From Saccoglossus kowalevskii (lineage: Eukaryota > Hemichordata > Enteropneusta > Harrimaniidae), in NCBI RefSeq assembly GCF_000003605.2, contig NW_003138320.1:792085-826635 (forward strand): DNA of 34,551 nt, in the 5' to 3' direction. Of this stretch, positions 225 to 33,126 are shown in pieces. A program made the position numbers and the translations under genes. Numbering within the stretch: position 1 is the stretch's first letter; the number at the start of each line of letters is the position of its first letter. The notes under the pieces are model-generated. The model made no database searches. It had not been told where the DNA came from and saw only the letters and a list, made by a program, of their open reading frames with translations.

Positions 225-765
225 CAAGCAGCCTATCGGCTGAGATAGCTCCGCTGTAAGCAATGCACATTTCAATTAAAGAACTGAAGACATCATTAGA
301 AAATGAACAATATGAATAGTATCAAAGCAATCGGACTTACAGTTTTTAACAAGAAGTCGAAAATATCACTTTTTACCAAAAATTACAAAAATGTTCACCA
401 AAATAAATAGAGAATTAAAGATATCATCACAAAACAAACAAATCTGAGAGAGGTCCACATGTAGTACCTATATATGTAATATCAAAGCAATCGGACTTAC
501 AGTTTTCAACAAGAAGTCGAAAATATCACTTTTTACCAAAAATGACAAAAATATTCACCAAAATTAGAGAATTGAAGATATCAACATGAAATGAACAAAC
601 CTAAGAGAGGTCTACCCAAAGTACATATACACCAAGTATCAAAGCATTCAGGCTTGTAGTTTTCAAGAAGAAGTCGAAAAAGTAAAACATTGACACGGAC
701 GACGACGACGGACAATCACTCATATGATAAGCTCCGCTCGACAAAGTCGACAGCGGAGCTAAAAA
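225..765 (-). mobile_element. Hairpin-ended element with tandem core units (two units), reverse orientation
   Basis: One end (225-270) reads AGCAGCCTATCGGCTGAGAT followed by AGCTCCGCTG. The core holds two copies of a roughly 150-bp unit (ATATCAAAGCAATCGGACTT at 318-337 and 479-498). The other end is a strong hairpin at 730-760 with AGCTCCGCT/AGCGGAGCT arms. The same element, inverted and with more core units, lies at 31825-32806. Confidence 0.75.
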
Positions 766-1059: not shown

Positions 1060-1430
1060 ATTAAGGTTCGCTTTAATCATTATGCAAATTAGGTAATTAA
1101 TATTGCACAGATTTTTACCCAAAACTAATCAAATCTGCGCATTAGTTTGGAGCATCTGTGTGCCAAGTTTCATCAAAATCCAATGAGTGGTTCTTTAGAT
1201 ATCAGTGGAACAGTCATGAAACAGCCAAAAATCAGCTAATTATCATGCAAATTAGGTAATTAATATGCATGGATTTTTACCAAAACCTAATCAAATCTGC
1301 GCATTGGCCCAGAGCATCTATGCACCAAGTTTCATCAAAAACTGATGTATGTTTCTTGAGATATCAGTGGAACAGACGGACACACATACACACACACACA
1401 CCCACACATACACACATACAGACACACTAA
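1060..1430 (+). repeat. Dispersed repeat: two tandem copies of about 160 bp ending in a CA-rich tail
   Basis: ATGCAAATTAGGTAATTAAT occurs at 1082 and 1244, each followed by ATCAAATCTGCGCATT, CAAGTTTCATCAAAA and AGATATCAGTGGAACAG. The second copy runs into a (CA)n/CATA tail at about 1380-1430, an arrangement typical of retroposon tails. Family not identified. Confidence 0.65.
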
Positions 1431-1578
1431 CTGCAAAGACTCCCTTTTCCCAAAAATGTTTGACTGTGACAAACAAGATGCAAATTTCCAAATAAAGAAG
1501 ACATTTAAATGTCTAACACTTTCAAACACATCACGATTTGCGAACAAGTAAATTCTATTGTTTTCTGTGTTACATGTA

Positions 1579-2663: not shown

Positions 2664-5600
2664 CTGCAATGAAATAGAAACATTACTGTTGTGAGTTTTG
2701 GGTTCTTTGTAAAGTACAGTGGAAGGCATGCACAATAACTGTGAATTCTAACATGTATAATTTCAAGAAAGAAAAAAAAGCGATACATTGTCAAAGAACA
2801 ATTGATCCAACTATGAAAGGAATCATCATGGACACGCATCTCTATATACATAATGCATATAACAAATTTGAAAACCGACATGTCCAAGATGGCCGCCAGT
2901 CGGCCATCTTTGATCTGATTACTGAACAAACTGATATGGACATGCATTCCAACATGTATGATGCATATGCCAATAAGTGGTCAGTAGGTCTTGAAGATAA
3001 TAATATGACCAAAAAAGAAGATAGCCATCTTTGATCTGATTTGCATGAACATATATAATTTATGTACCAAATTTGAATGAAAATAATAAAGCTTTTCCAC
3101 CATAATACATTTTCAAAAAACAAGATGGCTGCCAGTCAGTCATCTAACAGTTTTGCCTCAGGTGAACATTTTGTGTGGTAGACTTGATTTTATTTTTTGA
3201 CTTACATAGGAAGTTCCTTTCCAGTCAACATACTTGGATGTTTTTCTATCCATTTATCATACACCGACTGGTCATTAGACGGAGACATCACCTACAAAAT
3301 AAAGAAAAAACATTCAATGTCAATAGTACCTATATGACTAAACAAAACACTTCTGCTTACAAAATCATTGAAATCAGACTGGCTTATCTTTAACCCTTCT
3401 ACAAACAATCTGTTAAGGGTGCATGATTGCAACACATTCTGTTTGATGCGAGTCCCATGCGACATGTATAGTGCATGTAAAATACAATGATTACACCAAT
3501 AGTCCTATATAATCTGCAATTTCCATCAGAATATTGACAAAAAAACAAATTTACCCAAATTTTCTGTTGGCTCCAAAAATTAGGGTTTACCGTACTCGAC
3601 CTCGTTAGCGCCCAGGGGCCTCAACTCAGAAAATCACGATTTTGTAGGGATGGGCGCTTACCCGAGCACCCCCCTCGAAAAAGAGTGCAAATGAAAATTT
3701 TGATTCATCAAGTGACAGATTATGTCTTTGAGAGAAAATCAAATTACTAAATTAGTTGCGTCGTCATTGATTTTCACAATAAAGAAACAGAAATGATCAC
3801 AAAAAATATGCACATTTTATTACAATATTAATTACGTACCACCATAATTTACGGAATTAAAAACATTTGAGTCTGTTGGAACACAGTCGAAGTCAAAATT
3901 GTCATATTATTTCCACTGACGAAGTTGTTGGATCGTATGCAAACTCTTGATGAAAATCACTTTCCGCCATGATGCAAGTGCAGATTTGACCTACAGCAGC
4001 GTCCTTTGACCTAATGGGTCAAGTTGGTTATTAACTAATCAGAATGCTGTGTTGTACTAACGCAATTCTTTGGAAATTCGGTAACGCAATGCGGAAGTGA
4101 ATAATCGATGTCGTAGTACGATCTGTTAGGATTGATTTCAGCGAATAAACGACATGGTTTTTCCGAAAAACTAGTAACTAGCTATTTTTGAGAGGTAAAC
4201 TGAATATGGCATGAAATATTTATCGCATTTTACTTGTATTAACAGGTCATTGTCGAAGCGTAGTTTACGCACGGTTACTGTGTTCTACGCATTCACATGT
4301 TCACCGCGATCGATATCCACGCTGTTTCATATAAAAACGATTACCAAGATTCGTTACGCAAGACCAAGTTTTAAATTAGTTGCATTTTGAAGGGGTGGGC
4401 GCTTTGCCGAATGTGACCCCAAATATAAAAATTGCACAAAAGTGGGGGGTGGGCGCTTGCTCGGGCATGGGCGCTAACGCGGTCGAGTACGGTATTTCAA
4501 GAAATTTTGAAGAATATCAGAAAAAAGTGCAGACAAATTTCGGTGAGAAAGTCTGGTGGTGAAACGGTTATGAAAGGGGATGAAAAATGCATGCAATCCT
4601 TCAAAGTGATAAAAAGCATTATATTCTGTAAAAATGTGGATACCTTCTTGGTGGCTTCAAAGATAACCTTCTGGAGAAGTGGACTAGCACTGGCAGCAAA
4701 TGAGTAGTCTCCCATGACAACCGCATCCAAGTTAATGTAAGCAACAGCTCTATTTCCAAGCATCGTACTAAACTCCTACATAGAGTAAATAGATTGACAG
4801 TTGTTTTAATAACAAAGATGTTCATCACTAAGAATGGTATCATGAATCAGTAAATGAAATATGACTGAAATATAATTTACCTCAACCCATTCTGTCGATC
4901 CAATCATCCCATACTCCTTGGCATCCCAACTAGCAAAGATTATAGTACGGCGCGGTTTCCAACCTAAAATAAAAACAGTGAAATGTTATTTTAGAATATA
5001 GAAACTGTTCCATTTCAAACACACTGTGGTTTCTCGAAATGCTTACTAATTAGATAACTTGTCACTGATAAAAGTCACCGAAAACATTTTGAGCAATTTT
5101 AAGCAATAATACTAGTCAAGAGTGAAATATAAACGTGCCTCTGCATTCTCCATTAATTTCGTAACTTGCTATGATCATGGTAAAAAGAAAACCTGTGCTT
5201 ACTTTCAACAGCTAGCTGGAGTCTGATCGAAAACGCGTCTCAATAAATACCGTTACATCATTTTTCCGATAATTTTTTTCAGCTCGTAACGATAGAATCA
5301 GTCAATTTAGAACTAACATGTATGCTATCGGTAAGCATTTTGGCACACTTTTACTGAAAAGATGAGTTTTTCATTGCTCATGAATATTAATTTATGCAAA
5401 TAAGACTATTTATGCAAGGGCAGACACTAAGATATTGCCTTCTTTCAGGGGGGTTTGCTTTTTGGTGTCATTCGTTGGAATATGAATAAGGATTTGCGGG
5501 AGATTTTTTTTTTTAAAGAGGAACGAAAATTTCTTAAACATCTTTGTAAACACAGAAATGAAAGTTGTATGAATTCACCATGAGATTTATTTTCAAATTT

Positions 5601-8600
5601 TATTTTTATTAGGTATACATGTATGTATGATTTTTCTCTTTTCTTTTATTTCTTTTGTTTGCTCTTGTTGGCATTCCAAAGGCTTAATAAATATTATTAT
5701 CATTATTATAGACAACTTAATGAAGTGAACAAGCATTATCCCTAAGAAAATAGAAAAACCTTTCCTGAGTAACCTACGGGACAATTACAGATAAATTACA
5801 AAGTCACACTACACACACATTTCAAAGTGGACAGTAATCAGTAAATTAATTCTTTGATTAGAGAAGACAGACATAACACATTCGATGTTTATTCCCAGGT
5901 TATGTTATCAATGTTGATAACCAACTAGGCAGGATTTTCATTTTCTGAACAAAGAATATCCATGTTACTTAAATATTCACATAAAAGTTCATTCCAACGA
6001 GTCTACTGCTTGACATGCAATAACGGGATTCATTATAGGTGAAAAAAGCATCAACGAAGAAAGTACCATAAAGAAGGAATTTTTTGGATTCACAAATTCC
6101 AGGGAGATCTCTTCAAACTCACTGGGCCTAATTATACAGGTTGATTCTACACTGGGTGAAAGCTGACTTAAAGGGCGGTAGTCGTGCCATGTATGACGAG
6201 ATATATGGGTCTCATAAACAAAGATGGCGACTCTGACTATTGCACAGATCAACGAGTACAAACTGAGATGTTACCAAGCTTTAATTAGGTATTTTTAGGT
6301 ATTGGAAGGTATCAAAGGAGTCATCGGTGGTAATTAGTGCAATTCGCGCACAGGTCAAACCTCATACTTGTGATTTCCATTAGACGAGCGCATTGGATTG
6401 TGGGAAAATGTTTGTCAACACAAATGTCGCACATGGGCAGCGTAACGACCACCATCCTTTCATTATATGCGCACACGTGAGGATGACAGCGATATTATTA
6501 TATTATATTATATTATATTAGATATTATTCTAAATTAGATTTAGCATGGGGGACTACATGGGAATAAAATAATGCAGTTAATTATTGGAGTTTTAATTAT
6601 ATTCTATAATTCTTATTAGTCTGTATTAGTAAATAATATTGTCTATTAGCTAAAATTCCAGTTCTGACATGTATTATCCAATGTACTTATAGATACAGAG
6701 AATGTGTGTGTTGTCTGTCTCCACATGTTGTATATCTATCATAAAATATACCCATAATGCATAGCAAGTACACTAAATACATGCCTGTAACCACGTTTGT
6801 GCCAGCTTGACACAAATCTCCCACAATCTAAGGTACACCACTAGCTGGTAATAAATCTCCCATAATGCAAAGAAAGTACAGCGCATACCTGCTTGCAACA
6901 GATCTCCCATAATGCACAGAAGGTACACCACATACCTGCATGCAACAAATCTCCCATAATGCATGGGAAGTACACCACATACCTGCTTGCAACAAATCTC
7001 CTACGATTCTTGATAATTCCATCATAACAGCCATGCCACTGCTTCCATCAATTCCCCCATAATTCCATGCGTCTTTATGACTACCAATAATAACATAGCG
7101 ATCTAAAACGAATACATTACACAAGTTGAGTACAAGAAATATCTGACAGCATCTACTATATAAAAAATATGTCTATTGGTATAACTACCGGTACTAAAAT
7201 TGTGTTCTCACACTCACTGAAGTATTTGTTTCCACTCCAAATATATTCTGGAACTATTCTTTTTTTGTCAGAATCACAAAAATGTTAAACAAATGATGTC
7301 AGAGTGCATTGGTCTACACTGACCTGGTTCAACGGATCCTGGGACACTGGCGAGAATATTGGAAACTTGGTTCTTTCCTGGGGGGTTGTGAACTTCCAAT
7401 TTTAGTGATAAATCTGAATTTAAGAATCCTGGTCCACCATTATACTGGCAACCTCGCTCACCGCTCCATTCAGGTGGCACATGAGGGAGGTCAAGTTGAC
7501 TGTAGGGAATACAGGTGTAAATAAGGAGATACAATATACAACTGACAGTGCAGTACGATTGAAAACTGGCAAACTACAAGCATGTGACAAGCTTGTGACA
7601 TATTTCACAGTTAATTTTAGACCAAATTACACACAAAAAAAAGACATCAGTTTCCAATAAAAATGATAAAAATGACAGATAGTCTCTATATCTGCAGTTC
7701 TGTACCTGGCATTGCTAAATATAGATCAATAATTATAGTAATTTATGGTGAACTTGAGAGATACTCTGTTGACATATTCTTAAAGAAAATTAAATCATTT
7801 AATAGATTCAGTAATTTATCAAATATAATATTAATATTAAAGGATGCCAACACAAAAAAATAAGAGCAACTGGCTTCAAATAGTTTCAGAGTGGTGGAAC
7901 TGATTTTGACGCATTTTGGCCTTAAAATGGGCGTCATTTGGTCATTTTCAGTCAGATAATAAAATAAAACACGTGCATATAATGTCTGATGTATGTGTGG
8001 CATTTGAATTTGATCAGCCCAAGCATGGCTTGATACAGATGGATGTGAACAAGGACATGCACGAGGGTGGCAATCCGCGAGTCCCAATTTTTGGCAGGGG
8101 CCTCCTTGACCAGACATCAGCACAGTCAAGGATACTGATCCTGATGGTCAGATGAAGGTCAAGAGCACCCCTTGTGGTGGCAAAATTGGAGAGTAGCATT
8201 GAAAGCTGGTGACCCATGAATGGGGGTGAAGGATGGAATCCTTGGCCAAAATCCAGATAAAAAGTCAGCAGAAATATTACTTACTATTCTGAACACATGA
8301 TAGTACGAGCATCCTCATAACTGATCACTTGGACGGGTATTTTAGGCAGACTAGTCAGTACATCAGAGTTAGGTAAAAAGTAAGATCCATCTGAAAAAGA
8401 AAGAAAACAACTTAAATTATTTCATTCATCATGTTTATATCTTCTCTACAGTAATGCAGTGCGCCCTCTATCCATTTTGACATATCACCAGAAATACCGG
8501 ATAGTGATTTTTGACAAGTCATTTTATAATGCAATCAAAACATGTGATTCGTACAAAAAAGGAAAACTAAACACCTTAATTTGTAAAAATACGGCATAAT

Positions 8601-11600
8601 TTTTTTATTGAATGGCTTGAAAATCAAACTAGGAAAGATGCTATGCAATGTGCAACACTATGCATCGCTGAAGTCCAAATTCTCATTCAAATTTAAATTT
8701 TTTGATTCAAAGATCACAAACCACCAAGTTGGAAGGCATGCTGTCCATGGAACAAGATTATGTAAAAACATGGTTGACTCTCATGGTATGGATTTGTTCC
8801 AATAGGTAGTGTGTCGCTATGACAACAATTATCAAATACTAAACATAATATTTATTGGCCCTAGTAGCGTTTATCTGTTTACAAGTCTGATAACTTTATT
8901 TACTTCCTGATCCAAACACGATGCCCAGAACTGAACTAAAAATGGTGACAATTTTTTATTAAATATTTTACAAGTAAACTTGGTTTTTAAAAGCATCCGC
9001 CATCTTGGAAATACCACGTAATGGTTCCATGTTTGAAATTAGCATTTCCTAATATGGTAGGATGCAGATTCCCTGTGCGATTCTGAAAAGTTATGGAACG
9101 GTGATTTGACAATAACTTTTCCCCTGAGTCCAAGTTTGACTTGGATTCCATTGTTCTAATAATTGGTGAAATATGGAGATAGGTGGTCTAACTATTTTGG
9201 ATTGCATTTTTCAGTGTTCAAATTACACAGTCACCACGCGTTTGTATGAACAGTGGGCAACTGTGTAAAGATGAGGAGTTCATATAATCCACAACTTTGC
9301 ATTTTATACAAAGTTATCAACGATAGACAGGAGGGTACACATGTATAGCTTAAAACCAATAATTACCGAGTATGATGTATGCTACCAGTAAGTTACAATG
9401 TTGGGGTTACCATATGGTCTAGAAGTTGTTATGAAGCCCCATATTAACTCAATTATTCAAAGCGCATGCAAAAATAGATTTTTATACCAGCATTAACTTT
9501 ATAAGTGATAGATAAAATATTTCTGCAATATTCTCTCTAATCTACATGAGCTGATGAATGTATGTGTAATCACTACCATTGATCACATGTATCACAAGAA
9601 TACTGCAAAGTAGGCTTGATGTAAGTATGGTGGTCGTATCGACTGACACTAATTCAAGTAGAGGTTGGTGCTTTCCTGTGCTGCCCAACTGCAAATTTTG
9701 CATTAAAGCGCGGTAGTTGCCGTGCTGTGCATGTACAAGATATACGAGTCTCATATAAACAAAGATGGCGACTTTGACCTTTGCGCAGATCAACGAGTAT
9801 GAAGTGAGACGTTTCCATGCTTTAAATAAGTAATTTTCATGTTATTGGAAGGTATCGGAGGAGCCACCAGCGGTAATTAGTGCAAGTCGCGCCTAGGTCA
9901 AACCTAATACTTGTGATTTCCATTTGAAGAGCGCATTGGATTGTGGGAAAATCAATGTTTATCAACACAAATGTGGCACATGCGCAGAGCAACGAATACC
10001 GCGCTTTAATCTTTTGATAAAACATTTTGCTGTTGCATGTAATTGTAATTTAATAAGATAACAAAAAATGTTTTGTGTTGTGCAACAGCAACAGGATTAT
10101 TTCCATATGTATACTTTAAAACACTTTCCTTTTTTTTATCGTTACATTGAATGCAGAATCACTAGATATATAGAATTCAATCACTGAGTGAAAATGTTCT
10201 CATTTCGCAAAATGTCTTGTATTTATGATAAAAACTATAAAATAGCATTTTCCTGAGTGTTGCAGTGACCTTGCAGATTTTCGAGAAAATTGTCTTAAAG
10301 GGGAACTAAATAGAGTCTATTTTGGTGTGTGTATTTATCACGTCATGTATATTGATTATAAATTTAAAAAAAAAAAATATTATCTTCAGAGTTAGGATGA
10401 TTTAAATATGAGAAACCATAAACCTGCGAAGGACTTCCGTTTGCGCCATCTTGCCATAAAAAAACGCCCTCATGAGGTATAAACAGGTAAGGTAACAAAG
10501 CATGACGACGAAATAGTATCTGATTAAATATAGGCAACTTAGGGAGCCATCTAGTCTAGGTTGTTTTGACTTTTACGTTAATGTTATTTACAAGCGTATC
10601 AACATACAAACATTATGGATGTGCGATTGATCGAGACAGACATTTTTTTGTCTAACTGTCTAATAAATGCTGTTTCCAGTACTGCACTCTACGGCGAGCA
10701 AATTATTCAAAGTATGGACGCTGGAGTATGCAATCTTGAGTTCGTAGGTGGTGGTGGAAACATTTTCGTCCATGTATTCAGGGGGCTGCACTGGCAAATC
10801 ATGGGATAATTGTCACAGGAACACCAAGCAGATTGTTCACAGACTTCCGTGTAATTTGAAATAAAACTATCATCCAAAACAAGGGGCATCGTTGACGATA
10901 TACTCTCANNNNNNNNNNNNNNNNNNNNNNNNNNNNNNNNNNNNNNNNNNNNNNNNNNNNNNNNNNNNNNNNNNNNNNNNNNNNNNNNNNNNNNNNNNNN
11001 NNNNNNNNNNNNNNNNNNNNNNNNNNNNNNNNNNNNNNNNNNNNNNNNNNNNNNNNNNNNNNNNNNNNNNNNNNNNNNNNNNNNNNNNNNNNNNNNNNAA
11101 AAAAATGCGTCATTGATTTCCATGACACTTAAAATAAAGAAACAAACATGTTCATAAAAAACACACACATTTTATTACAATACGATTTACATACCGTCTG
11201 AATGTACGGTGAAATAATGGGTAGGGTCTGTGGGAAAACAGTGGACGAAGGCATTTATCATTATCTTCGTTTTGGTATGTTTTCGATTGTACGCAAACTC
11301 TCAACGCAAAGCAATTTTCCACCATGAGGTTTTTTAGAACGATTTGACCGGAAACAACTTCCTTTGACCTAACAGGTCATGTCTTTCATTAACCAATCAA
11401 AATGATGTGTCGTAATGATGAAATTTTCTGATTATTGACGACAATATTTTAATGCAATGCGGAAGTGAATTATCGCAATGTAAATGCGATCTGTAGCACT
11501 GATTGCAACGAAAAAACGATGATTTTTTCCCTAAAAACTGACGATTCGCAATTTCCGAAATACAAACTGAGTGTGGAGGAAGAATTTAAACACCTTTCAC

Positions 11601-14600
11601 GGTCGCCAACATGCCCAATAACCAGGTACACGACTTAACGATCACATTTTTGGCTTTTCGAAAGCTACTACTCAAAGTAGTATGGATTACTCCAGTATTG
11701 CAACATCTGGGTTCATCCTGAGTAAATGACAGAATAGAAAGGGTGCCAACCACGTTGTGTACGTTCGCCATGCACTCTGAAATTAATGCGAGTTTTCTCA
11801 TAAAACTAAAAGCACAAACCAAACTACCATGCCAATCACGATTATTATGAAATGAAACACACCTTTTACACGCATATTTTAAAGAATATCGTTGACGCCC
11901 AGTAAAAACACTCTGGGCTTATAATCGTGAATGCTCTCAACTTGATAAATACCTAGTAAAAATAGAGGGATGGGCTTCATACTCGGGAGGGGCTTGCGAT
12001 TGGGGAAGTACGGTACTTTAACGCAATCGGGCTTCCACTCTCAGAATAAGGCTACTTTACTTCTAATGTTGCATATTGTTCCTTTATTTCTGTTGCATGT
12101 TTTCATTCGCCATTCTATTCCCTGTCCCGGTTCGATCTGCGTGTTAAAATTTTTTGTGAATTTTTGGGTTTTTTTTGCAGGGAATGTCCGGGCATAGGCC
12201 CACCCCAATTTTTGTTTGCAATTTTCCATGTTCAGGACCCTGGGCTCTTACAGAGGTACATAAATTATAATACGGTACATAAATTATTGGCAAAAAATTA
12301 AAATCATGCTCTTTATAATATTGACTCACCAACAGATGGAATTCCGGGAGTGAGAGGATCCCCATATCCGAGATAGGCCGTACCACTTTTAACCGATTTC
12401 GAAGGAACCCACCATGTATTGGGATAGACATGACTGGCATCTCTACCATCTGGTGAGAAATCAACGCTGTCTGAAAAGAGTAAAACTCCAGCAGCTTTGG
12501 CGTCCTCAGCATTTTTCACCTGAAAGTAAATGATTTACAGTAAAATACTGGAACAAGATTGAAATAAAATCGATTGGGATGAAATTTATTTTTAAATTAA
12601 CTTGTGAGAATGTGTTGATTTAATAAGTTATGTTCACTCAGAGCGAAAATTTGTGTGACCATGAATGCAACTGTATGTTTTAGTGACACTGGCTGGGTGT
12701 CGTGACTGAAGATTTATTTTTAATGTACATGTACATGTAGATATGCGGGGTTACATGTTAGAAATATTAATTAGAAAGACACATTATTGTAACTAATGAG
12801 GAGAAGTTGTGTTTCGTGTAATTCACTCATCATGAAGCTTTTAATTTGACATTATGGTAAAAGCATGTTTGTGATTCGCTCAAATTAAATAGATTTGAGT
12901 GTGCTACCGATTAAGAAATGTAAGCAAGACGTGACCGTGACAGTAACCTACTGTCAGCTATTTGTGCTTTTTTCATTGACTCTGTTGGTAATTACACATA
13001 AAGCTCAGAACACTGTGTAGTTAAAACCCTTATATCAGTTCTACCTACCATGTTACAAGGAAATATTTAATACAGTGTTACAAAACAGCAATTCCAAGAC
13101 CAGTACATCAGTTCTACCTACCATGTTACCAGGAAATATTTAATACAGTGTTACAAAACAGCAATTCCAAGAACAGTACATCAGTTCTACCTACCATGTT
13201 ACCAGGAAATATTTAATACAGTGTTACAAAACAGCAATTCCAAGAACAGTACATCAGTTCTACCTACCATGTTACCAGGAAATATTTAATACAGTGTTAC
13301 AAAACAGCAATTCCAAGAACAGTACATCAGTTCTACCTACCATGTTACCAGGAAATATTTAATACAGTGTTACAAAACAGCAATTCCAAGAACAGTACAT
13401 CAGTTCTACCTACCATGTTACCAGGAAATATTTAATACAGTGTTACAAAACAGCAATTCCAAGAACAGTACATCAGTTCTACCTACCATGTTACCAGGAA
13501 ATATTTAATACAGTGTTACAAAACAGCAATTCCAAGACCAGTACATCAGTTCTACCTACCATGTTACCAGGAAATATTTAATACAGTGTTACAAAACAGC
13601 AATTCCAAGAACAGTACATCAGTTCTACCTACCATGTTACCAGGGAACATTTAATACAGTGTTACAAAACAGCAATTCCAAGAACAGTACATCAGTTCTA
13701 CCTACCATGTTACCAGGAAATATTTTGCCAAATCTCATGATAACTATTTTATCTTCTGGCAAGTTAGCTTTCCTGCCTTCTAACAAATCAAAATCCTCCT
13801 TGGTACCATAGTTTAAGTAAACAGGCTTTTTCTGAAATAAAAGTAGCAATTACAGTTATATAAAAAATGGAAAGCACATAAATAAATAAATAAATGCAAC
13901 GCATATGTTCATGAAATATCAGGCGTTAACACAAACAAAAATTGGGAAAATCACAAAGACAATTTGGAAGTAATATTTTCACTTCTACAAAAATATTTAT
14001 CACGACTCGCAAATCAACATGGTTTATTATTTAAAGTATACTATCGTTCTATCCTCGGGGGCGGAGCTATGCCATAAGATGTTCCACATTGTTAAAACGT
14101 GCACCACTGTACCATGTATTTATATGGGCTCTGAGTGAACTGGTGTGGAACACCAGTCGAAGAGTTGGTGAAAATAGCTAAATTCGAGAAAACAGCACAA
14201 AATCAACTTTGAAGTAATCCTGGACAACTAAATTTATATGTGTTGCACATGCAGGGGTGATCTTGCTACACTGTTCAGGGGACTCTCACAACCATCCCAA
14301 AGTACCATTTTCTGAAAGTTGTCAGTCTATGTTTACATTGTGATGGTTGCCAGGCGGTGAAAATGTCTGAATGTCCGTCCCAAGAATTGTTCTGAGACAA
14401 GTAAAATTGTCATTCAGACAACTGAATACTGGCAGTACATGTAACTGACTGTAGTAAATATATAAACAACAAACATTTCAAACAAGCAAGTTTTAAAGTT
14501 AACGTCAAGCCCTGTAACTATACAAGTTCAGTGGGGAACTTGCTGAAATTGTTCCCAACTTGACCTACTAAACAATTTACATTCTAGAATTGTATAGTCA

Positions 14601-17600
14601 CCATTTGTTTTAAGTTTGCTCAATACAGTTTCACAACAGTTTTTGAATTTTTGGAATTTACAAATAGAAATAGAAAAAAATTGGTAGTAAAGACACACAA
14701 GGCCATATGTGGAAAAAATTGGGGTACAGACATACTTTTTCGGATAAAGGTATACATGCGACTATGATGAACAAATAATACACGACCCACTCAATTGGAA
14801 ATTTTTTTTTTGAAATGTTGAATTTTATACTTTTAAATGGCTTACAACCTTGAATATGAAATGACTTACGATGACGGTTGCAGAGTGGCTGTATGCGATG
14901 AAAGGCTGATTAATACCGCTCTTGTCTTCACCTTCATTCGTCCAAAATATATTTGATTCGTGACTCACAATGGACAGAGTGCTTTTCGAGCTGAAAACAG
15001 ATTTATCCATTGGTGAACAAGAGAATAGACTTAAATCTGTAATGTTGGATTTAAAGCGTCCCAAGATATACATGTAATACATTTTACAACAAAAAAGGCC
15101 ACCAAGCATCCATCTTTAGACAAAACATGATATGGGACATGTACACAATGTGTCATCTTGTGTTATGCAGGCTTTCAATTAATTTTAACAATAAATAACA
15201 CCAAAAAATAAAAATAATGTACTTTTTTTATGACAACAGACTAGCAACTACTATCTTTCATTCTTTGACTACAGCTCTGGTATTATGCAATACTGTAAAA
15301 ACAATCACTCTAGGCATGTCAAAGATATGGCATCTTGAAAAAAAAAATTATCTATCTATCTTGATCTATAACCTTGATTTTGTTGTGTATATACATAAAC
15401 AACCTGAATACTTCCAGTTATAACCAACTTGAATAAAATTTTGAAGCATAAGCGTATGCATCTGTTAGACATACATACATACATGCATGCATGTACTAGT
15501 ACCGTAAAAACTTGATTAATTTGCGATAGTAAATATAATTATTTTTTCAAGTGCGCGAATTAATAGCGTAAAAACATAAATTATTGGGTACTTTTAGATC
15601 GATTCAAAAAGGGGCTGTTTTCATAAATTTATTAGTGATTTGTTTTGTTTTCCAATGAACACTATTACAGGACGCTGTTTAAGTGCCTCTGAGACTCGTG
15701 GTTAGCAACATTCATGGCATACAGTCGGGTAGAGAACACGCTCAACGTCAAGGACCACGCACCATGTTACACTTGAAATAGAACAGTGAAATGGCAAAGG
15801 TCACTCTGTACACAAACAAACAATGAACACGTGGCTACAAAGTAGCCGTCTGGTTGCACTGCCTTTTTTAAAAAAATTTTCGGCAGTACCGTCAGACACA
15901 GATTATTAATTGTTCGACAGGTCGTCGGCAGTGAAGCCGTCAAGCCAATCACCATCTTAGTCGTCGTCTAAAAGCAGATCAGCAATGATTTCTGCTATTT
16001 CAGTGTTGCTTCGGATAAGGTGGTCTTCTGCCCCGTTGATTGCATTTTTGTAGCCATGTGTTCATTTTTTACATGATTGTTTGGTTTTTTTTGTCAAGCA
16101 CTTTCATCTATAATGAAAATGTGTCACGAGGTCATTCGCCCGACCAATCAAAAACGTCAATTTACGTACTTAAATTACATCATAGAATAAAATCACTTTC
16201 CAAAATGGCGGACACATGGTCGATGCAACCCTGTGGACCAGCGACGAAAAGCCCTGTACTAAGCTTTCCATCACGGAAATTCGTAATCGATGTGCTGACC
16301 GATGGATATTTATCGACTAAGTAATAATTTTGCCCAACATCTGTAGTGTCGTGAGGGAATGATTTTTTTCAGGTCTAAACTGCTTGCTAACTGAAAGGCT
16401 GTGATGACGGAGATCGTCTGCGATTGCGGCTACAACAAGTACTGATAACATAAAAACTGTATAAATGTATATTTTTAATGTCTTCATTCAATATATATTC
16501 TGAGTTATCCACTTTATTCTGGCCAGCGAATTAATAGGATACAATTTCAAATATGTTTTTGAACGCCGCGAAGGATACCTTTTAAAATTAGCCTTCAAAA
16601 ATAAAATGGGTCGCGAAATAATAGGGACCGCGAAGTTATTACGTTATGTTACATGAGAACAAGTGCTTGAAATCAATCTAGGCATGCCTCAGAATGTCTT
16701 GTTTGAAAAAGAATGGCCACTCATCAGCCATTTACAAAAATGCCTGACACAAGATACCAGATTGAATGGTAGAAATTTTGGTGTCAACTAAAATGTCAGT
16801 CAGCCATATTGAATTTGAATGTGAATGGGAGGCAAATGCATACATGTGACTTAACATTTTCACCACCAGTTTCCTCTGTTGGTTCCAAAATTAGGGTTCA
16901 TTTCCAGAAATATTGAAGAATATAAGAAAAAGGGCAAAAACATTTTAGACGAGAGAGTCTGATGGTAAAAGGTTAATGTATGTGTCAAGTAAAAGTGTAA
17001 CTTTTGGGGCATGTACGAGATGTAGGTGTGGACAACAGAAAGGGGGAATTGTAAGTCCCAGTTTTTAGACTACAACAAACAAGTATAAATAAAATATTGG
17101 ACCAAATTATAGCTTCATCGGATTTGAAAGCAAAATGAAACTAATTTCTGATAAAAAGAAATGAAAATTAAAAACAAATTCTGTTCAAAGATTCAGCTAC
17201 AATGTAGTCTGGGAGGTGATGAATTGCAGTTATTATGGTTACCTGGATTTAAGTGGCAGCCATGGATTATATTTCTTCGTCTCAATCGTGAACCCATACT
17301 CTGTCCATTTGTTAGTAATATAATTGTCTCTGTCCAGGCTTGCTTCTGATCCAATGGGATGAGAAACATTAGAGAAATACCTTGAAAAAATGGCAAACAA
17401 TTAAAACGATGAAATTCTCATTTTGACTGTTTACTGCATTCATTCAGATTATACTAGATATACTAGACCAAATAAAGGTTTTTCAAACTTTTAAAACTAT
17501 GAAAAAATTCCACACCTGCACTGCAGTATGGTATATATAGAAAATTCAAAGACTGACTGGGAAGGTTATGGCGCCCTCTACAGTCATCTTACATGCACTT

Positions 17601-20600
17601 GTTGATTGAGGACTAAAATTGCAAATCTATACTGTAAAAGCAGTAATTTTTACATTTAATTTTACTCTTGATTTTTTTAGCATATTCACTGGTTTGAAGT
17701 TGAAATCCGCCACAGCCAGTACTCGCCTTTGATATATACAATGGTTATAAAAAAAAATAACAATAAAAATAATAATTGAGTTGCATAATGTATTGTAATG
17801 TAATGTAATGTAATGTAATGTAATGTAATGTAATGTAATGTAGCGTAGCGTAGCGTAGCGTAGCGTTGTAGTGTAGCATAGCGTAGCGTAGTGTAGTGTA
17901 GCATAGTGTAGTGTAGAGATGCAATCAGATTCCTGTGTTGCCCTCATGTTTATTTATCAGGTCATTTTCATAATACCCTTATTGTTATACATCTTTTCCT
18001 GCTTGATGTCATTTCGCAAGATGCGATAACCCAACATGCCAGCAAAAGTATTTTACGAGATTCAAGTCAGGGTGATTATCTGAATTCAGTGACGCAACGG
18101 GATTCAATTTCATCACGTGCTATAAAAGGTTACTTTGCCCGATATAAACAAAAGAAACCGAGTGCAAAAGAAATACGTTGCACATTTCCTAAAAAGAAAC
18201 ATGTACATAACATTTTCAAACATCTCAGTAGAGGGGTTTTACAGATATCTAAATATTATTTTCATACTGTTAATGGTTAATTGTAACATCTGGTACCTGA
18301 AAACCTGCCCTATGTAGACAAAGCGGAGTGTGGTGTGGTTTAAGCACAGTTTTATAAGTGTAAATATTTATTTGCGTCTCGGATATCAGTTTAATAGTTT
18401 TGGCTGTACATCGAGCGCATTTGATTTCAGGCCACACTTCACAAATTCAGCATTCATGCAGTGCAAAGCAAAAGGTTGCTGTATCATACGTTTTCATTTG
18501 ACCTAACTAACATACATTGAAGGCAATCTGAATGTAATTGATTTCATGGGTCACTGCATTGTCACAGCTGCGCAGCACGATATTTCAACACTGTGGCGCT
18601 GTGGCATGCATTTATTCCAGGGACAAAACCATGCGTGCCATAATGGAAAAGAATGTGCAAAAAATTTTCAACCGTAGAGCTAAAAAAAAAAATACCCTAC
18701 TGTTCTCTTTTTACCATGATGATCTCAGCTTTTGATCAGGGACTGTGCTTTGATATAACTATCCACAAGAGGTAAATTTCATTTAGATGATAATTTGTGT
18801 CACTTTTGCAATCACAAAGAGTAATTTCAAACTATGAATACCGGTAATTAACATTCTGTGAAAATAATTTGAAACCATGTCATCACTCACAGAAATGTAA
18901 ACTTCAGAGAAAAAACATTGGGAAAACATTTTGATGATATGATGTGTATGCTAGCACTTTTCAAATTCCCCACATAAATGATTTTAATTTTATCCTAATT
19001 TGCTAAATGACTTTAAATTCAGTGTAATAATGAGTTCTATTGTAATTTTTTATATCCATGCAGATTTAATTTTTTCAGCAAAATAAAAGTAAAAACCCAA
19101 TGAATAATTAATGCATTAATTGTAGTTTTTTTTAAATGGGTTATGAGCCTGAAACAAGTTATTTTACTGTAGGATGAAATAATCACACAATTACTCACTG
19201 TTTTTTTTAATTTTGCTATTATCGCCGATAAGTAAAATCCATTATTAAATCAAATCCATGCAAACATGTAATATAACAATAGAGCTCATTATTTCCCTGC
19301 CAGGTTGCGTGTACTTTAAACACAGTGAAATTGCTCAAAGCATCCATTGTGAAACAGCTGTGAAGATATTAGTGACCTAACGCTGGATTATATGCAAGCG
19401 CAAACAGCCAATTATGTTCTTTATATCACTTGCTTCAAATAATAGGTTAAGCCAACAAAGCACATGGATACAGACATGCAGCTATGATAAATAAATGAAT
19501 GTATGTGTGTACAGAAAATAAATACATGTACCAGACAGAAAGAAATTAATTGAATTATAGCCATGTATAGTGTTGGCTAATGAATAAGTCAATGCAAACT
19601 CAACCCCAACGTCAGGGGAGAATGAAACTATCCATATTGAAAAAACAACTGTAATTTGCATCTGAGGCCAATCTATTAAAAAAGGGAGTGAAGAAATGAG
19701 CAATAGCATCGCCATAACAAGTATCAAGTCTTATTAGCACGCTAACATTTATCAGAGTAAACATTAGCTAGTACATGTTATTATGTCTAGTCTGGTTACA
19801 CAACTAATATTTATTATAAAAGCGGAAGACAGATATCACAAAATCATAAAACAAAACAAAAATCAAAATAAGCAGGTATATTTGATGTGTTGGTCAAAAT
19901 AATTGGAATAGTAATTTTCAAGAAGAACTGTCAAAAGTTTAGTCTGGCAGGTGGGCGGTTTACAACCAGTTATATATCAATGGCCGTGCTGGCATCAATG
20001 GAGCTAACAAAAGTAGCTGAATATTCATACAAGTCTACAAGAGTTCTCAGTTATTCTTCCAGTAATTGCAAAGGCCATTACAATACACTTTTATACGCTC
20101 ACATCATTTTTGAAAATCATAAAAGATGTAAATTATTACACCAGTCTGGTTGTAAAGTATTCTTTGTATCCTGGCACATTTTTATGTATTTTTCCATATT
20201 TGTTTGATAATTTTGATTCAAACGGGCATAATATTAAATTAATGTGGTTTAACAATTTTTTTATAGTGACAAAATATAGTTGACTTTGCAATCAAAGGGT
20301 TAGACAAGTTTAATTGTCTACACTTTTGAATGAATGCTCAATAACCATAGCAACCCTTTGAACATTAAAAATCTTGCACAAAATAAACTTTCATATTTTT
20401 TTCAAAAATGTTGATTAAGACTTATAGTCAATAGGAAATCATGATCATTTGGTCTTAAAATAAAGAAATTAGAGAAAAATACATAAATAAAGTGCCAAAT
20501 GTTATATTAAAATTTTTACAAAAACTATATGAAATAAGTGTTTAAAAGTACAAGTGTTGTAGTTGTAACTTACCACAAGAAATTATCCAAATTTTCAACC

Positions 20601-20902
20601 GACACATCCTTGTTAAGGGAGACACCATATTGTTCCTCGTAATCTTTACTCAAATCGTTGCAGTTTCCTATATTCTTCACCAGATGGCGCCGAGTCATGT
20701 AACCAATAATCAATCCAAAAAAAAATATTAGCACTGCCACAAATATCTTGACCATAAGTCCTCGCTTTCCATAGCACCATTCGGGGCATGTAGCAATCTG
20801 CTTTGCAGGTTTGTACTGCGCAATATCAACGTTATCAGTCTCGGGATCCCATCGACTGTACAGAGCAGCTTTCCCACCACCTGAATCATTGTTTGTCGTC
20901 AT
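2573..20902 (-). CDS. GCPII/NAALADase-like M28 membrane metallopeptidase, 12 coding exons, 3' end outside window
   Basis: Joined exons: 20902-20574, 17380-17243, 14990-14870, 13831-13706, 12519-12330, 8390-8285, 7499-7324, 7102-6983, 4963-4881, 4775-4644, 3291-3206, 2663-2573, giving 1698 nt (566 codons) with no stop and matching phases at every junction. The product is a type II membrane protein. Residues about 1-48 are cytoplasmic, 49-69 a membrane segment, then a stalk, a protease-associated/apical region (about 155-370) and the M28 peptidase domain (about 390 onward). Zinc ligands by family alignment are H404, D414, E452 and D480; the fifth (His) lies beyond exon 12. Family members of about 750 residues cleave C-terminal residues from extracellular peptides or folates. 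Here the general base before the Glu ligand is K451, so activity is doubtful. Vertebrate orthology (FOLH1, NAALAD2 or NAALADL1) cannot be settled, so no symbol is given. Confidence 0.94.
2887..2909. repeat. Perfect 9-bp hairpin over an AAGATGGCCGCC motif
   Basis: AGATGGCCG and CGGCCATCT are exact inverse complements around a five-base loop. Related AAGATGGC and GCCATCTTTGATCTGAT phrases recur at 3023 and 3121, suggesting a decayed short repeat in intron 11. Confidence 0.6.
3206..3291 (-). CDS. Coding exon 11: peptidase domain
   Basis: Acceptor TTATTTTGTAG precedes 3291, donor GTAAGT follows 3206. It encodes residues 508-535 ([20 protein letters not shown]..), aligning with the GCPII segment SLYESWTKKSPSP. 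It leaves in phase 2, forming M536 with the first base of exon 12. Confidence 0.88.
3590..4492 (-). mobile_element. TA-flanked TIR transposon (903 bp) with a mini-ORF and poly(A) signal
   Basis: The left end CCGTACTCGACCTCGTTAGC and right end GCTAACGCGGTCGAGTACGG are inverted with one mismatch over 24 bp, flanked by TA (3588-3589, 4493-4494). GGGCGCTT.CC.GAGCA subterminal motifs recur inside both ends. On the minus strand, an ATG at 3970 begins a short frame containing EFAYDP, a shifted frame continues DFDCVPTD, and AATAAA follows at 3821-3816. Homologous copies lie at 33974-34551 and 11099-12013. It is non-autonomous; TA targeting suggests the Tc1/mariner-pogo group. Confidence 0.87.
4644..4775 (-). 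CDS. Coding exon 10: fourth zinc ligand
   Basis: Acceptor CTCTATGTAG precedes 4775, donor GTATCC follows 4644. It encodes residues 464-507: [20 protein letters not shown], then [16 protein letters not shown]480 (4727-4725) aligns with zinc ligand D453. The arginine of the GCPII arginine patch at position 463 aligns with A490. Both ends are phase 0. Confidence 0.94.
4881..4963 (-). CDS. Coding exon 9: catalytic Glu/zinc-ligand motif, general base replaced by Lys
   Basis: Acceptor ATTTTAG precedes 4963, donor GTAAAT follows 4881. It encodes residues 437-463: [19 protein letters not shown] then IGSTEWVE. In active relatives the motif is WDAEE(F/Y)G, the first Glu being the general base and the second a zinc ligand. 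Here the first is K451 (AAG at 4919-4917) while the ligand E452 (GAG at 4916-4914) is intact. The GSTEW..E calcium-site glutamates are kept. Confidence 0.95.
4965..6160. other. Intron 8, left part: no feature seen
   Basis: AT-rich intronic sequence between exon 9 and the MITE at 6167; it holds an octamer-like ATGCAAAT near 5393 and no recognisable exon. Confidence 0.5.
6167..6460. mobile_element. MITE with AAAGATGGCGAC interior, copy 1 (decayed end)
   Basis: It matches 9702-10010 along its length: CTTAAAGGGCGGTAGT start, ACAAAGATGGCGACTCTGAC, ATCAACGAGTA, GGTCAAACCT, GCGCATTGGATTGTGGGAAA. The right terminal repeat is eroded (GTAACGACCACC). Confidence 0.78.
6492..6529. repeat. ATATT microsatellite
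   Basis: Short run of TATTA/ATATT units just right of the decayed MITE. Confidence 0.9.
6800..7001 (-). repeat. 47-bp minisatellite, 3 clear plus 1-2 decayed units, spanning exon 8 end and its splice donor
   Basis: Copies of ACCTGC(T/A)TGCAACA on the plus strand begin at 6981, 6934 and 6887 (47 bp apart), with decayed copies near 6840 and 6800. The rightmost copy is the real exon 8 boundary. In coding orientation each carries GGAGAT(T/C)TGTTGCA(A/T)GCAG followed by GTATG, so two extra donor-like sites lie in intron 8. Confidence 0.92.
6983..7102 (-). CDS. Coding exon 8: first two zinc ligands; its 3' end seeds a tandem repeat
   Basis: Acceptor ATTCGTTTTAG, donor GTATGT (6982-6977). It encodes residues 397-435: [21 protein letters not shown]404 (codon 7079-7077) and D414 (7049-7047) are the zinc ligands matching H377 and D387 of GCPII. 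The last 19 exonic bases (GDLLQAG codons) and the donor are copied downstream in intron 8 as a 47-bp array, and the reading frame runs on through the array to a stop at 6828. Confidence 0.95.
7324..7499 (-). CDS. Coding exon 7: link from apical to peptidase domain
   Basis: Acceptor ATTCCCTACAG precedes 7499; the donor is GTCAGT, slightly weaker than its neighbours. It encodes residues 338-395 with CQYNGGPGF (GCPII YNVGPGF), [19 protein letters not shown] (conserved strand leading to NVIG) and GSVEP, and the split codon D396 opens the DRYVI motif of the next exon. Confidence 0.93.
8285..8390 (-). CDS. Coding exon 6: apical domain
   Basis: Acceptor CTTTTTCAG precedes 8390 and donor GTAAGT follows 8285. 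It encodes residues 302-336, including [20 protein letters not shown], matching the GCPII stretch with GLPSIPVHPIGYYDAQKLL. Both boundaries split codons (D302, Y337) and both resolve correctly. Confidence 0.92.
8391..9700. other. Intron 5, left part: no feature seen
   Basis: No coding exon or terminal inverted repeat recognised between exon 6 and the MITE at 9702. A GCGCCCTCTA motif at 8461 also occurs at 17571. Confidence 0.5.
9702..10010. mobile_element. MITE with AAAGATGGCGAC interior, copy 2 (intact ends, 309 bp)
   Basis: Terminal inverted repeats ATTAAAGCGCGGTA and TACCGCGCTTTAAT (14 bp) bound the element. The target duplication is unclear. It lies in intron 5. Confidence 0.85.
10909..11098. 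other. Assembly gap (190 N)
   Basis: An unbroken run of N in intron 5, next to a repeat, so a repeat-induced scaffold gap is likely. Nothing can be said of its content or true length. Confidence 1.
11099..12013 (-). mobile_element. Diverged relative of the CCGTACTCGACC element, left end lost in the N gap
   Basis: 11099-11540 parallels 3755-4170 (ATTTTATTACAATA, GTACGCAAACTCTC, AATGCGGAAGTGAATTATCG). AATAAA on the minus strand at 11176-11171 and an ATG at 11325 are retained. The right end reads GGGGAAGTACGG then TA at 12014-12015. A minus-strand open frame at 11822-11586 (78 codons) lies inside; I do not recognise it. The left terminus is hidden by N. Confidence 0.7.
12330..12519 (-). CDS. 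Coding exon 5: PA/apical domain
   Basis: Acceptor TTACTTTCAG precedes 12519 and donor GTGAGT follows 12330. It encodes residues 239-301, starting [20 protein letters not shown] and ending [13 protein letters not shown]; the GDPLTPG motif is a family hallmark. The position of GCPII N257 is T285. It leaves in phase 1 (D302 split G/AT). Confidence 0.94.
13034..13726 (-). repeat. 73-bp minisatellite, 9.5 units, spanning exon 4 end and its splice donor
   Basis: Unit starts (CAGTTCTACCTACC) occur at 13036, 13109, 13182, 13255, 13328, 13401, 13474, 13547, 13620 and 13693, exactly 73 bp apart. The tenth copy is the real exon 4 boundary. Units are nearly identical; visible variants are an A for C in unit 1, three changes in unit 9, and a GACC/GAAC difference in units 1 and 7. 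In coding orientation each unit holds about 20 nt of exon 4 end (..CCTGGTAACATG) followed by donor GTAGGT. Confidence 0.97.
13706..13831 (-). CDS. Coding exon 4: protease-associated (PA) segment; its 3' end seeds a tandem repeat
   Basis: Acceptor TTTATTTCAG and donor GTAGGT (13705-13700). It encodes residues 197-238 ([15 protein letters not shown]... [16 protein letters not shown]), the clear counterpart of VYVNYARTEDF..GKIVIARYGKVFRGNK in GCPII. The Arg of FRGN that binds the substrate alpha-carboxylate in GCPII (R210) is P235 here. The last 20 exonic bases and the donor are repeated downstream in intron 4 as a 73-bp array. Confidence 0.93.
14870..14990 (-). CDS. Coding exon 3: N-terminal peptidase half / apical junction
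   Basis: Acceptor TGTTTTCAG precedes 14990 and donor GTAAGT follows 14870. It encodes residues 156-196, ending [13 protein letters not shown], which aligns with the GCPII stretch PFSAFSPQG..GDLVYV. It leaves in phase 0. Confidence 0.9.
15502..16644 (-). mobile_element. pogo/Tigger-like DNA transposon remnant
   Basis: TA (15500-15501) precedes CCGTAAAAACTT, and AAGTTATTACGT precedes TA (16645-16646); these are imperfect inverted ends. On the minus strand, a frame ending at stop 15959-15957 reads [14 protein letters not shown], then an acidic DDD end. I read this as the C-terminus of a pogo/Tigger DDE transposase, where an Ala/Gly-Ser/Ala-Glu-Asp-(D/H)-Leu motif sits near the end. The rest of the transposase is missing or unrecognisable. 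Subterminal GCGAATTAATAG motifs occur near both ends (15555, 16526). Confidence 0.55.
17243..17380 (-). CDS. Coding exon 2: start of ectodomain
   Basis: Acceptor TTTTTTCAAG precedes 17380 and donor GTAACC follows 17243. The exon encodes residues 111-155, beginning [19 protein letters not shown]. This matches the GCPII segment where a Phe, an N-glycosylation sequon and a His-Leu/Ile-Ala/Gly turn open the ectodomain. N114 (NVS) sits at the family's conserved glycosylation position. Phase enters after two bases and leaves after two bases (AG/C, S156). Confidence 0.92.
17794..17916 (+). repeat. Pentanucleotide microsatellite switching from TGTAA to GTAGC units
   Basis: About ten TGTAA repeats (17794-17840) give way to GTAGC and then mixed GTAGT/GTAGC/ATAGC units to 17916, a two-step change at fixed 5-bp phase. 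It lies in intron 1 and produces only artefactual open frames. Confidence 0.95.
17920..20570. other. Intron 1 interior: no gene seen
   Basis: AT-rich sequence with short open frames lacking codon bias or family resemblance. Noted inside: an E-box plus TATA-like stretch at 18114-18128, and an AAACCCAATGAATAATTAA phrase near 19095 like the ends of the 21621-21820 MITE. Confidence 0.6.
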
Positions 20903-31765: not shown

Positions 31766-33126
31766 AGCTCCGCTGTCGACCTAGTCCAACTTGTAATGCG
31801 AGTGAATGTCCGTGTCAACTTTTTAGCTCCACTGTTGACTTTGTCGAGCGGAGCTTATCATATGAGTGATTGTCTGCCGTCGTCTGTGTCAATGTTTTAC
31901 TTTTTTGACTTCTTCTTGAAAACTACAAGCCTGAATGCTTTGATACTTGGTGTATATGTACCTTGGGTAGACCTCCCTCAGATTTGTTTATTTTGTAATG
32001 ATATCTTTAATTCTCTAATTTTGGTGAATATTTTTGTCATTTTTAGTAAAAAGTGATATTTTCGACTTCTTGTTAAAAAACGCAAGTCCAATTGCTTTGA
32101 TATTACATATATAGGTACTACATGTGGAACTCTCTCAGATTTGTTCATTTTGTAATGATATCTTTAGTTCTCTAATTTTGGTGAATATTTTTGTCATTTT
32201 TAGTAAAAAGTGATATTTTCGACTTCTTGTTAAAAACCGCAAGTTCAATTGCTTTGATATTACATGTATAGGTACTACATGTGAACCTCTCTCAGATTTG
32301 TTCATTTTGTAATGATATCTTCAATTCTCTAATTTTGGTAAATATTTTTGTCATTTTTGGTAAAAAGTGATATTTTCAACTTTTTGTTGAAAACAGCAAG
32401 TCCAATTGCTTTTATATTGCATACATAGGTACTACATGTGGATCTCTCTCAGATTTGTTCATTTTGTAATGATATCTTTAATTTTGGTGAATATTTTTGT
32501 CATTTTTGGTAAAAAGTGAGATTTTCGACTTCTTGTTAAAAACCGCAAGTCTGATTGCTTTTATATTACATATATAGGTATTACATGTGGACCTTGTTAA
32601 TTTCGTGGTGATATCTTCAATTACTTAATTTTGATGATTATTTTTGTCATTTTTGGTGAAAAGTGATATTTTTGAATTCTTGTTGAAAACAGCAAGGTCC
32701 TTTGCTTTGATACTATACATATTGTTCATTTTCTAATGATGTCTTCAGTTCTTTAATTGAAATGTGCATTGCTAACAGCGGAGCTATCTCAGCCGACAGG
32801 CTGCTTGTTTGACTTTTTCTTTTAAACTACAAGCCTGAATGCTTTGATACTTGGTGTATATGTACCCTGGGTAGACCTCTCTTAGATTTGTTTATTTCAT
32901 GATATCTTCAATTCTCTAATTTTGGTGAATATTTTTGTAATTTTTGGTAAAAAGTGATATTTTCAACTTCTTGTTAAAAACTGCAAGTCTGATTACTTTG
33001 ATATTATACATATAGGTACTACAGGTAGACCTCTCCCAGATTTGTTCATTTCATGGTGATATTTTCAATTCTTTAATTTTGATGAATATTTTTGTCATTT
33101 TTGGTAAAAAGTGATATTCTCTATTT
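31766..33126 (+). mobile_element. Hairpin-ended element with about five to six core units, plus an adjoining partial copy
   Basis: The terminal hairpin lies at 31825-31855 (AGCTCC.CTGT.. / ..AGCGGAGCT), with a second terminal-like motif at 31766. Core units start at 32055, 32212, 32369, 32518 and 32665 (GATATTTTCGACTTCTTGTT type), spacing 157, 157, 149 and 147 bp. The far end (AGCGGAGCTATCTCAGCCGA, from 32778) matches the inverse of 225-250. A second, partial copy follows at about 32807-33126. Confidence 0.75.

Follow-up and report, generated by a model that had tools for sequence, protein, structure and literature searches.

In lancelets, minisatellites formed when a stretch spanning an exon-intron boundary is duplicated in tandem go by the name of "mirages"; the original Adh mirage paper is reportedly that of Canestro and colleagues from 2002. 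A report on lancelet genes describes, in the sections drawn on here, tandem repeats over exon-intron boundaries in the globin genes BflGb6 and BflGb9 and in Adh3 (units of 10-72 bp in the last), with two BflGb6 haplotypes differing in unit number (6 versus 3), a homogenised centre in that array, and regular splicing undisturbed (PMC3087553). Repeats of 60 and 108 bp have also been described in lancelet PGBD5, in an article whose accessible portion cites the Adh and TnC mirages, gives copy numbers of 2 versus 7 and 3 versus 6 between assembly versions, and says that splicing is unaffected (PMC3902484). The Rogers model, cited in the sections used of PMC3087553, derives intron gain from tandem duplication of proto-splice sites. 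No report of a hemichordate mirage was found among the papers listed in searches of a literature that lay mostly outside subscription journals, and nothing on competing duplicate splice sites was found in it.

Here, we analyzed a 34,551-nucleotide stretch of the genome of the acorn worm Saccoglossus kowalevskii (contig NW_003138320.1; hereafter, the window), in which a 73-bp array at window positions 13034-13725 is, in our judgment, likely to be a mirage outside the lancelets, its copies being near-neutral decoys.

The array lies in a glutamate carboxypeptidase II-like gene

Ten exons on the minus strand of the window (4644..20902; exons 1-10 of our model, with the C-terminal part outside it) were joined in frame. 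The resulting protein matches the glutamate carboxypeptidase 2 (GCP2) chain (E = 2.9e-82, residues 99-506) and contains Peptidase_M28 (PF04389, 6.1e-17) and PA (PF02225, 1.7e-05) domains; judged by these matches, the gene that bears the array encodes a homologue of glutamate carboxypeptidase II. A pattern search for its later exons returned one place only, near position 2653. Exon 4 (13706..13831, 126 nt, entered in phase 0) ends in GNM where the solved GCP2 has GNK, and exon 5 (12330..12519), which has a single acceptor, starts with VKNA as in GCP2. Since the GNM|VKNA junction lines up with GNK-VKNA in the GCP2 chain, the in-frame donor is the one at 13706|13705.

Elsewhere in the gene, a run of N at window positions 10909-11098, inside intron 5, marks either an assembly gap or a withheld stretch, and pentanucleotide arrays (TAATG, then GTAGC-like) occupy positions 17786-17916 inside intron 1. 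Repeats with a 157-bp period lie near both ends of the window (318-680 and 31973-33118), by eye in opposite orientation, and an array of the same period is present in another sampled locus (L030).

Ten identical donors behind one exon

The array was delimited by TRF (period 73, 9.5 copies, 98% matches, score 1349) and by reading its units in register on the minus strand; it spans the exon 4/intron 4 boundary with nine full units and a tenth, partial unit of 35 matching nt. Each 73-bp unit consists of 20 nt of exon end, corresponding to the last 20 nt of exon 4 (13706-13725), followed by 53 nt of intron (GTAGGT + 47 nt). The donor ATG|GTAGGT is identical in 10/10 units: the in-frame donor at 13700..13708, with an intron starting at 13705, is followed by nine extra copies within 13043..13635, whose introns would start at 13632, 13559, 13486, 13413, 13340, 13267, 13194, 13121, and 13048. 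Intron 4 (12520..13705) thus measures 1186 nt, 672 nt of them array. An earlier note on this DNA had proposed that an exon end and its donor, rather than whole exons, are multiplied about ten times in a 73-bp unit holding the last 20 nt of exon 4 and GTAGGT; the TRF copy number, the donor count, and the unit anatomy all bear this out, save that the array edge, put there at 13726, belongs at 13725, the upper bound of the exonic 20 nt.

Only one of the ten donors, 13706|13705, keeps the reading frame, and our in-frame gene model requires no donor but this first one. As the earlier note had claimed, reading on beyond exon 4 runs into TGG-TAA within the first extension, and the unit is without a convincing acceptor, its coding strand containing, by direct reading rather than by an acceptor score, only two AGs (GTAG, GTAG), neither preceded by a pyrimidine tract.

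The units differ at few places. Unit 0, the real exon end, equals units 3-7 letter for letter, such that the array has an identical centre and an edge unit carrying the centre sequence, whereas changes are confined to units 1, 2, 8, and 9: two differing sites in unit 1, both within its exon part; one change common to units 2 and 8, in the intron part; and one change within the 35 nt of unit 9. Near-identity had been taken as a sign of recent expansion, and the pattern fits either recent expansion or homogenisation. The copy number is taken from one assembly, and six of the nine full units are identical, which, together with the N gap in neighbouring intron 5, would suit an assembly artefact, in which misassembly of near-identical units lengthened what is truly a short array or a single duplication. 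We regard this as very unlikely, because units 1, 2, 8, and 9 are changed at particular places, the region has a single matching place in the assembly, and a diverged array of like anatomy is found at exon 8 (see below).

The genome contains other satellites, including arrays with AGGTAAGT, and a dispersed satellite or transposon might by chance have landed on the exon end. To this reading we assign next to no probability, and we reject it: a 21-nt piece of the unit, searched with one mismatch allowed against the whole assembly (572,110,611 bases, 4830 contigs), gave 9 matches in these 572 Mb, all inside the 13034-13725 array (reversed control, 0), so that the unit core occurs at this locus alone, and the unit contains the gene's own coding sequence.

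Comparison with lancelet mirages

The acorn-worm array resembles the lancelet globin and Adh3 mirages in that a repeat straddles the boundary (in BflGb9, as in the present gene, the one at the 3' end of the exon) and in that splice signals are carried by many units; it differs in that, according to the sections used of that report, many but not all lancelet repeats keep their signals, whereas 10/10 donors are intact in the acorn worm (PMC3087553). Likewise, PGBD5 is said to have two arrays at splice sites within one gene, as does the present gene, but those are imperfect repeats at two neighbouring exons, in contrast to one near-perfect array and a further one in a paralogue in the acorn worm (PMC3902484, accessible portion). 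The hosts differ as well, lancelets being chordates and the present host a hemichordate. With the Rogers intron-gain model, as outlined in the part of PMC3087553 that cites it, the array has in common a tandemly duplicated splice signal as raw material; unlike in that model, the acorn-worm units lack any convincing acceptor and are contained in an intron that already exists, and no new intron was seen. A structure known from lancelets only, in the papers cited and as far as their sections drawn on here extend (PMC3087553, PMC3902484), would now be found in a second deuterostome phylum.

Two further donor arrays with other units

A second donor array, which the earlier note had not mentioned, as it had not the known status of such structures, multiplies the 3' end of exon 8 (6983..7102, minus strand) in the same gene. 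This array (6853..7001, minus strand) has a 47-bp unit composed of 19 nt of exon and 28 nt of intron; donors are intact at introns starting from 6982, 6935, and 6888, and the fourth copy is decayed. Its unit length, like 73, is no multiple of three. A third array was found in a paralogue on another contig (C1146; locus L021, positions 1125-1537, minus strand), where a 34-bp unit sits at the end of the exon corresponding to exons 8 and 9 and 12/12 donors (GAG|GTAGGT) are intact. The exonic share of this unit is 28 nt by the TRF edge (1537), with exon and array alike further upstream. We considered that a fixed 20-nt piece of exon is captured each time and dropped this notion, the exonic shares of the three donor arrays being 20, 19, and 28 nt. 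Variation among the L021 units is greater in the exon part than in the intron part (23/252 versus 3/156 varying cells; nominal Fisher p 0.003, for a split that uses a chosen 21-nt register and cells that are non-independent).

The three donor arrays occupy different exon ends and have unequal unit lengths. The first and third have GTAGGTAG in common at the donor, and no other likeness among the three was seen by eye; we infer that they are of separate origin.

Proposed origin and consequences for splicing

We propose that the 73-bp array began with a tandem duplication over the exon-intron boundary, after which unequal exchange or slippage would have multiplied the units and made them alike. 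The spliceosome would normally take the donor next to the exon, the first to be transcribed and the only one with a real exon body and an acceptor at normal exon length, while the nine donor copies would stay intronic and be removed with intron 4. If splicing slipped to a later copy, the message would gain 73n nt including a stop and would be expected to undergo nonsense-mediated decay. On this account, the array is probably close to neutral, with a copy number that varies.

By predicted pairing, the true donor does not stand out among its copies, the unpaired probability being 0.0099 for the former versus 0.0021-0.0144 for the nine copies. Accessibility was therefore rejected as a reason for the choice of the true donor, and any preference would have to stem from position and exon context.

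These same values, i.e., similar predicted accessibility, would also accord with a splicing rheostat, an idea akin to the copy-number tuning that the earlier note had raised. In such a rheostat, U1 snRNP would be contested by ten equal donors, some transcripts would acquire a 73n-nt extension with a stop and be degraded, and gene output would depend on copy number. The ten donors are indeed identical over 9 nt and further out, a stop follows within the first extension whichever downstream donor is used, and the 12/12 intact donors of the paralogue L021 point in the same direction. We nonetheless consider a rheostat unlikely, given that lancelet mirages are reported, in the portions of the two papers used here, without splicing disturbance (PMC3087553, PMC3902484), that nothing in the present sequence data supports downstream donor use, and that the donor is lost in the fourth copy of the exon 8 array.

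The mirage reading is favored by the anatomy of the array, with its unit spanning the exon-intron boundary (20 nt of exon, 53 nt of intron, ten donors) and a splice signal carried by 10/10 units (ATG|GTAGGT), by the reading frame, by the privacy of the unit, by two further donor arrays with other units, the one at exon 8 being partly decayed, and by the like anatomy of the lancelet globin, Adh3, and PGBD5 repeats. Against it stand the donors themselves, intact in 10/10 units here and 12/12 in the paralogue, where unselected decoys might be expected to lose their signal, as well as the predicted pairing, which gives the true donor no advantage, and a copy number taken from a single assembly; for the 73-bp array, recent expansion would account for the intact donors. 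Ten equal donors behind one exon amount to a natural experiment on the choice of the first among equal sites by the splicing machinery, and variants in copy number would reveal any cost of decoy donors.

Survey of exon ends and of tandem donors

To gauge how common such arrays are, we surveyed 105 exon matches with 210 ends (own gene, 10 matches; paralogues, 8; p450, 34; SNF, 53). Ends were those of protein or HMM matches, with a slack of 35 nt, such that true exon ends may be missed, and a long p450 match may stop somewhere other than at an exon end. Rows were judged within sampled loci (34/100 for p450 and 54/97 for SNF), and one SNF row was dropped because its margin was too short. Five ends were flagged, namely, the donor arrays at exons 4 and 8 of the gene itself and in L021, and two acceptor-end cases (L055 and L056). 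Tandem repeats were found at 0/68 p450 match ends and at 0/53 SNF donor ends. Since all three donor arrays belong to the family of the starting gene, we claim no enrichment from this survey.

The flag in L056, an 11-bp offset at the acceptor end of an SNF exon, was taken for low complexity. In L055 (~1420-1570), a two-copy repeat with an 86-bp offset lies across the apparent acceptor of an SNF-family transporter exon and is perhaps a decayed acceptor-side mirage. Two longer arrays were noted close to SNF-family exons: a 41-bp array of 12.8 copies (L068, 1935-2452), which stops ~48 nt before a likely acceptor and whose unit contains the branch-point-like motif TACTAAT; and a 23-bp array of ~64 copies (L080, 4-1479), which starts ~40 nt past a likely donor and whose unit contains CAGGTT.

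Genome-wide, no enrichment of tandem donors was seen: three AGGTAAGT words, searched as one pattern, matched 1190 times (426 + 764) versus 1613 (1045 + 568) for the reversed control; among the matches listed, most come from a few long arrays. A broader proposal would hold that donor-side arrays recur at hemichordate exon ends as in lancelets, and that ladders of equal donors are a standing, copy-number-variable dial or load on deuterostome splicing; we judge this decidedly unlikely.

The mitochondrial contig

One contig of the assembly (C4830; loci L003 and L004; 17,037 bp) is mitochondrial and carries COX1 on the strand opposite to ATP6, COX3, ND3, ND4, ND5, CYTB, ND1, ND2, and COX2. For S. 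kowalevskii, AUA has been assigned to Ile, AAA to Lys, and AGA to Ser, with AGG absent and a tRNA-Lys UUU, as compared with AUA for Met in cephalochordates (PMC3121625, accessible portion); in addition, nd5-cob adjacency has been described for two hemichordates and for Xenoturbella, the latter without the AUA change according to the sections used (PMC2697986). The mitochondrial contig shows the code and the nd5-cob order published for Saccoglossus; both point to an acorn worm of the Saccoglossus type, and the code led us to reject a lancelet as host. A GFP-family search, by comparison, gave no match in this assembly or in any of 14 control genomes and thus has no bearing on the host. More specifically, nd5 adjoins cob; a tRNA with anticodon TTT is present; AAA stands at lysines common to mammals (e.g., COX1 residue 264); and AGA stands at a cytochrome b serine common to mammals, with four AGA codons and no AGG in the ten genes counted. 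When ATA codons were compared by eye with the mammalian residue, Ile was found at 5/8 and Met at 0/8 in a COX1 stretch (printed alignment), at 3/8 and 0/8, respectively, in cytochrome b (8/9 ATA codons aligned), and at 9/19 and 3/19 in ND5.
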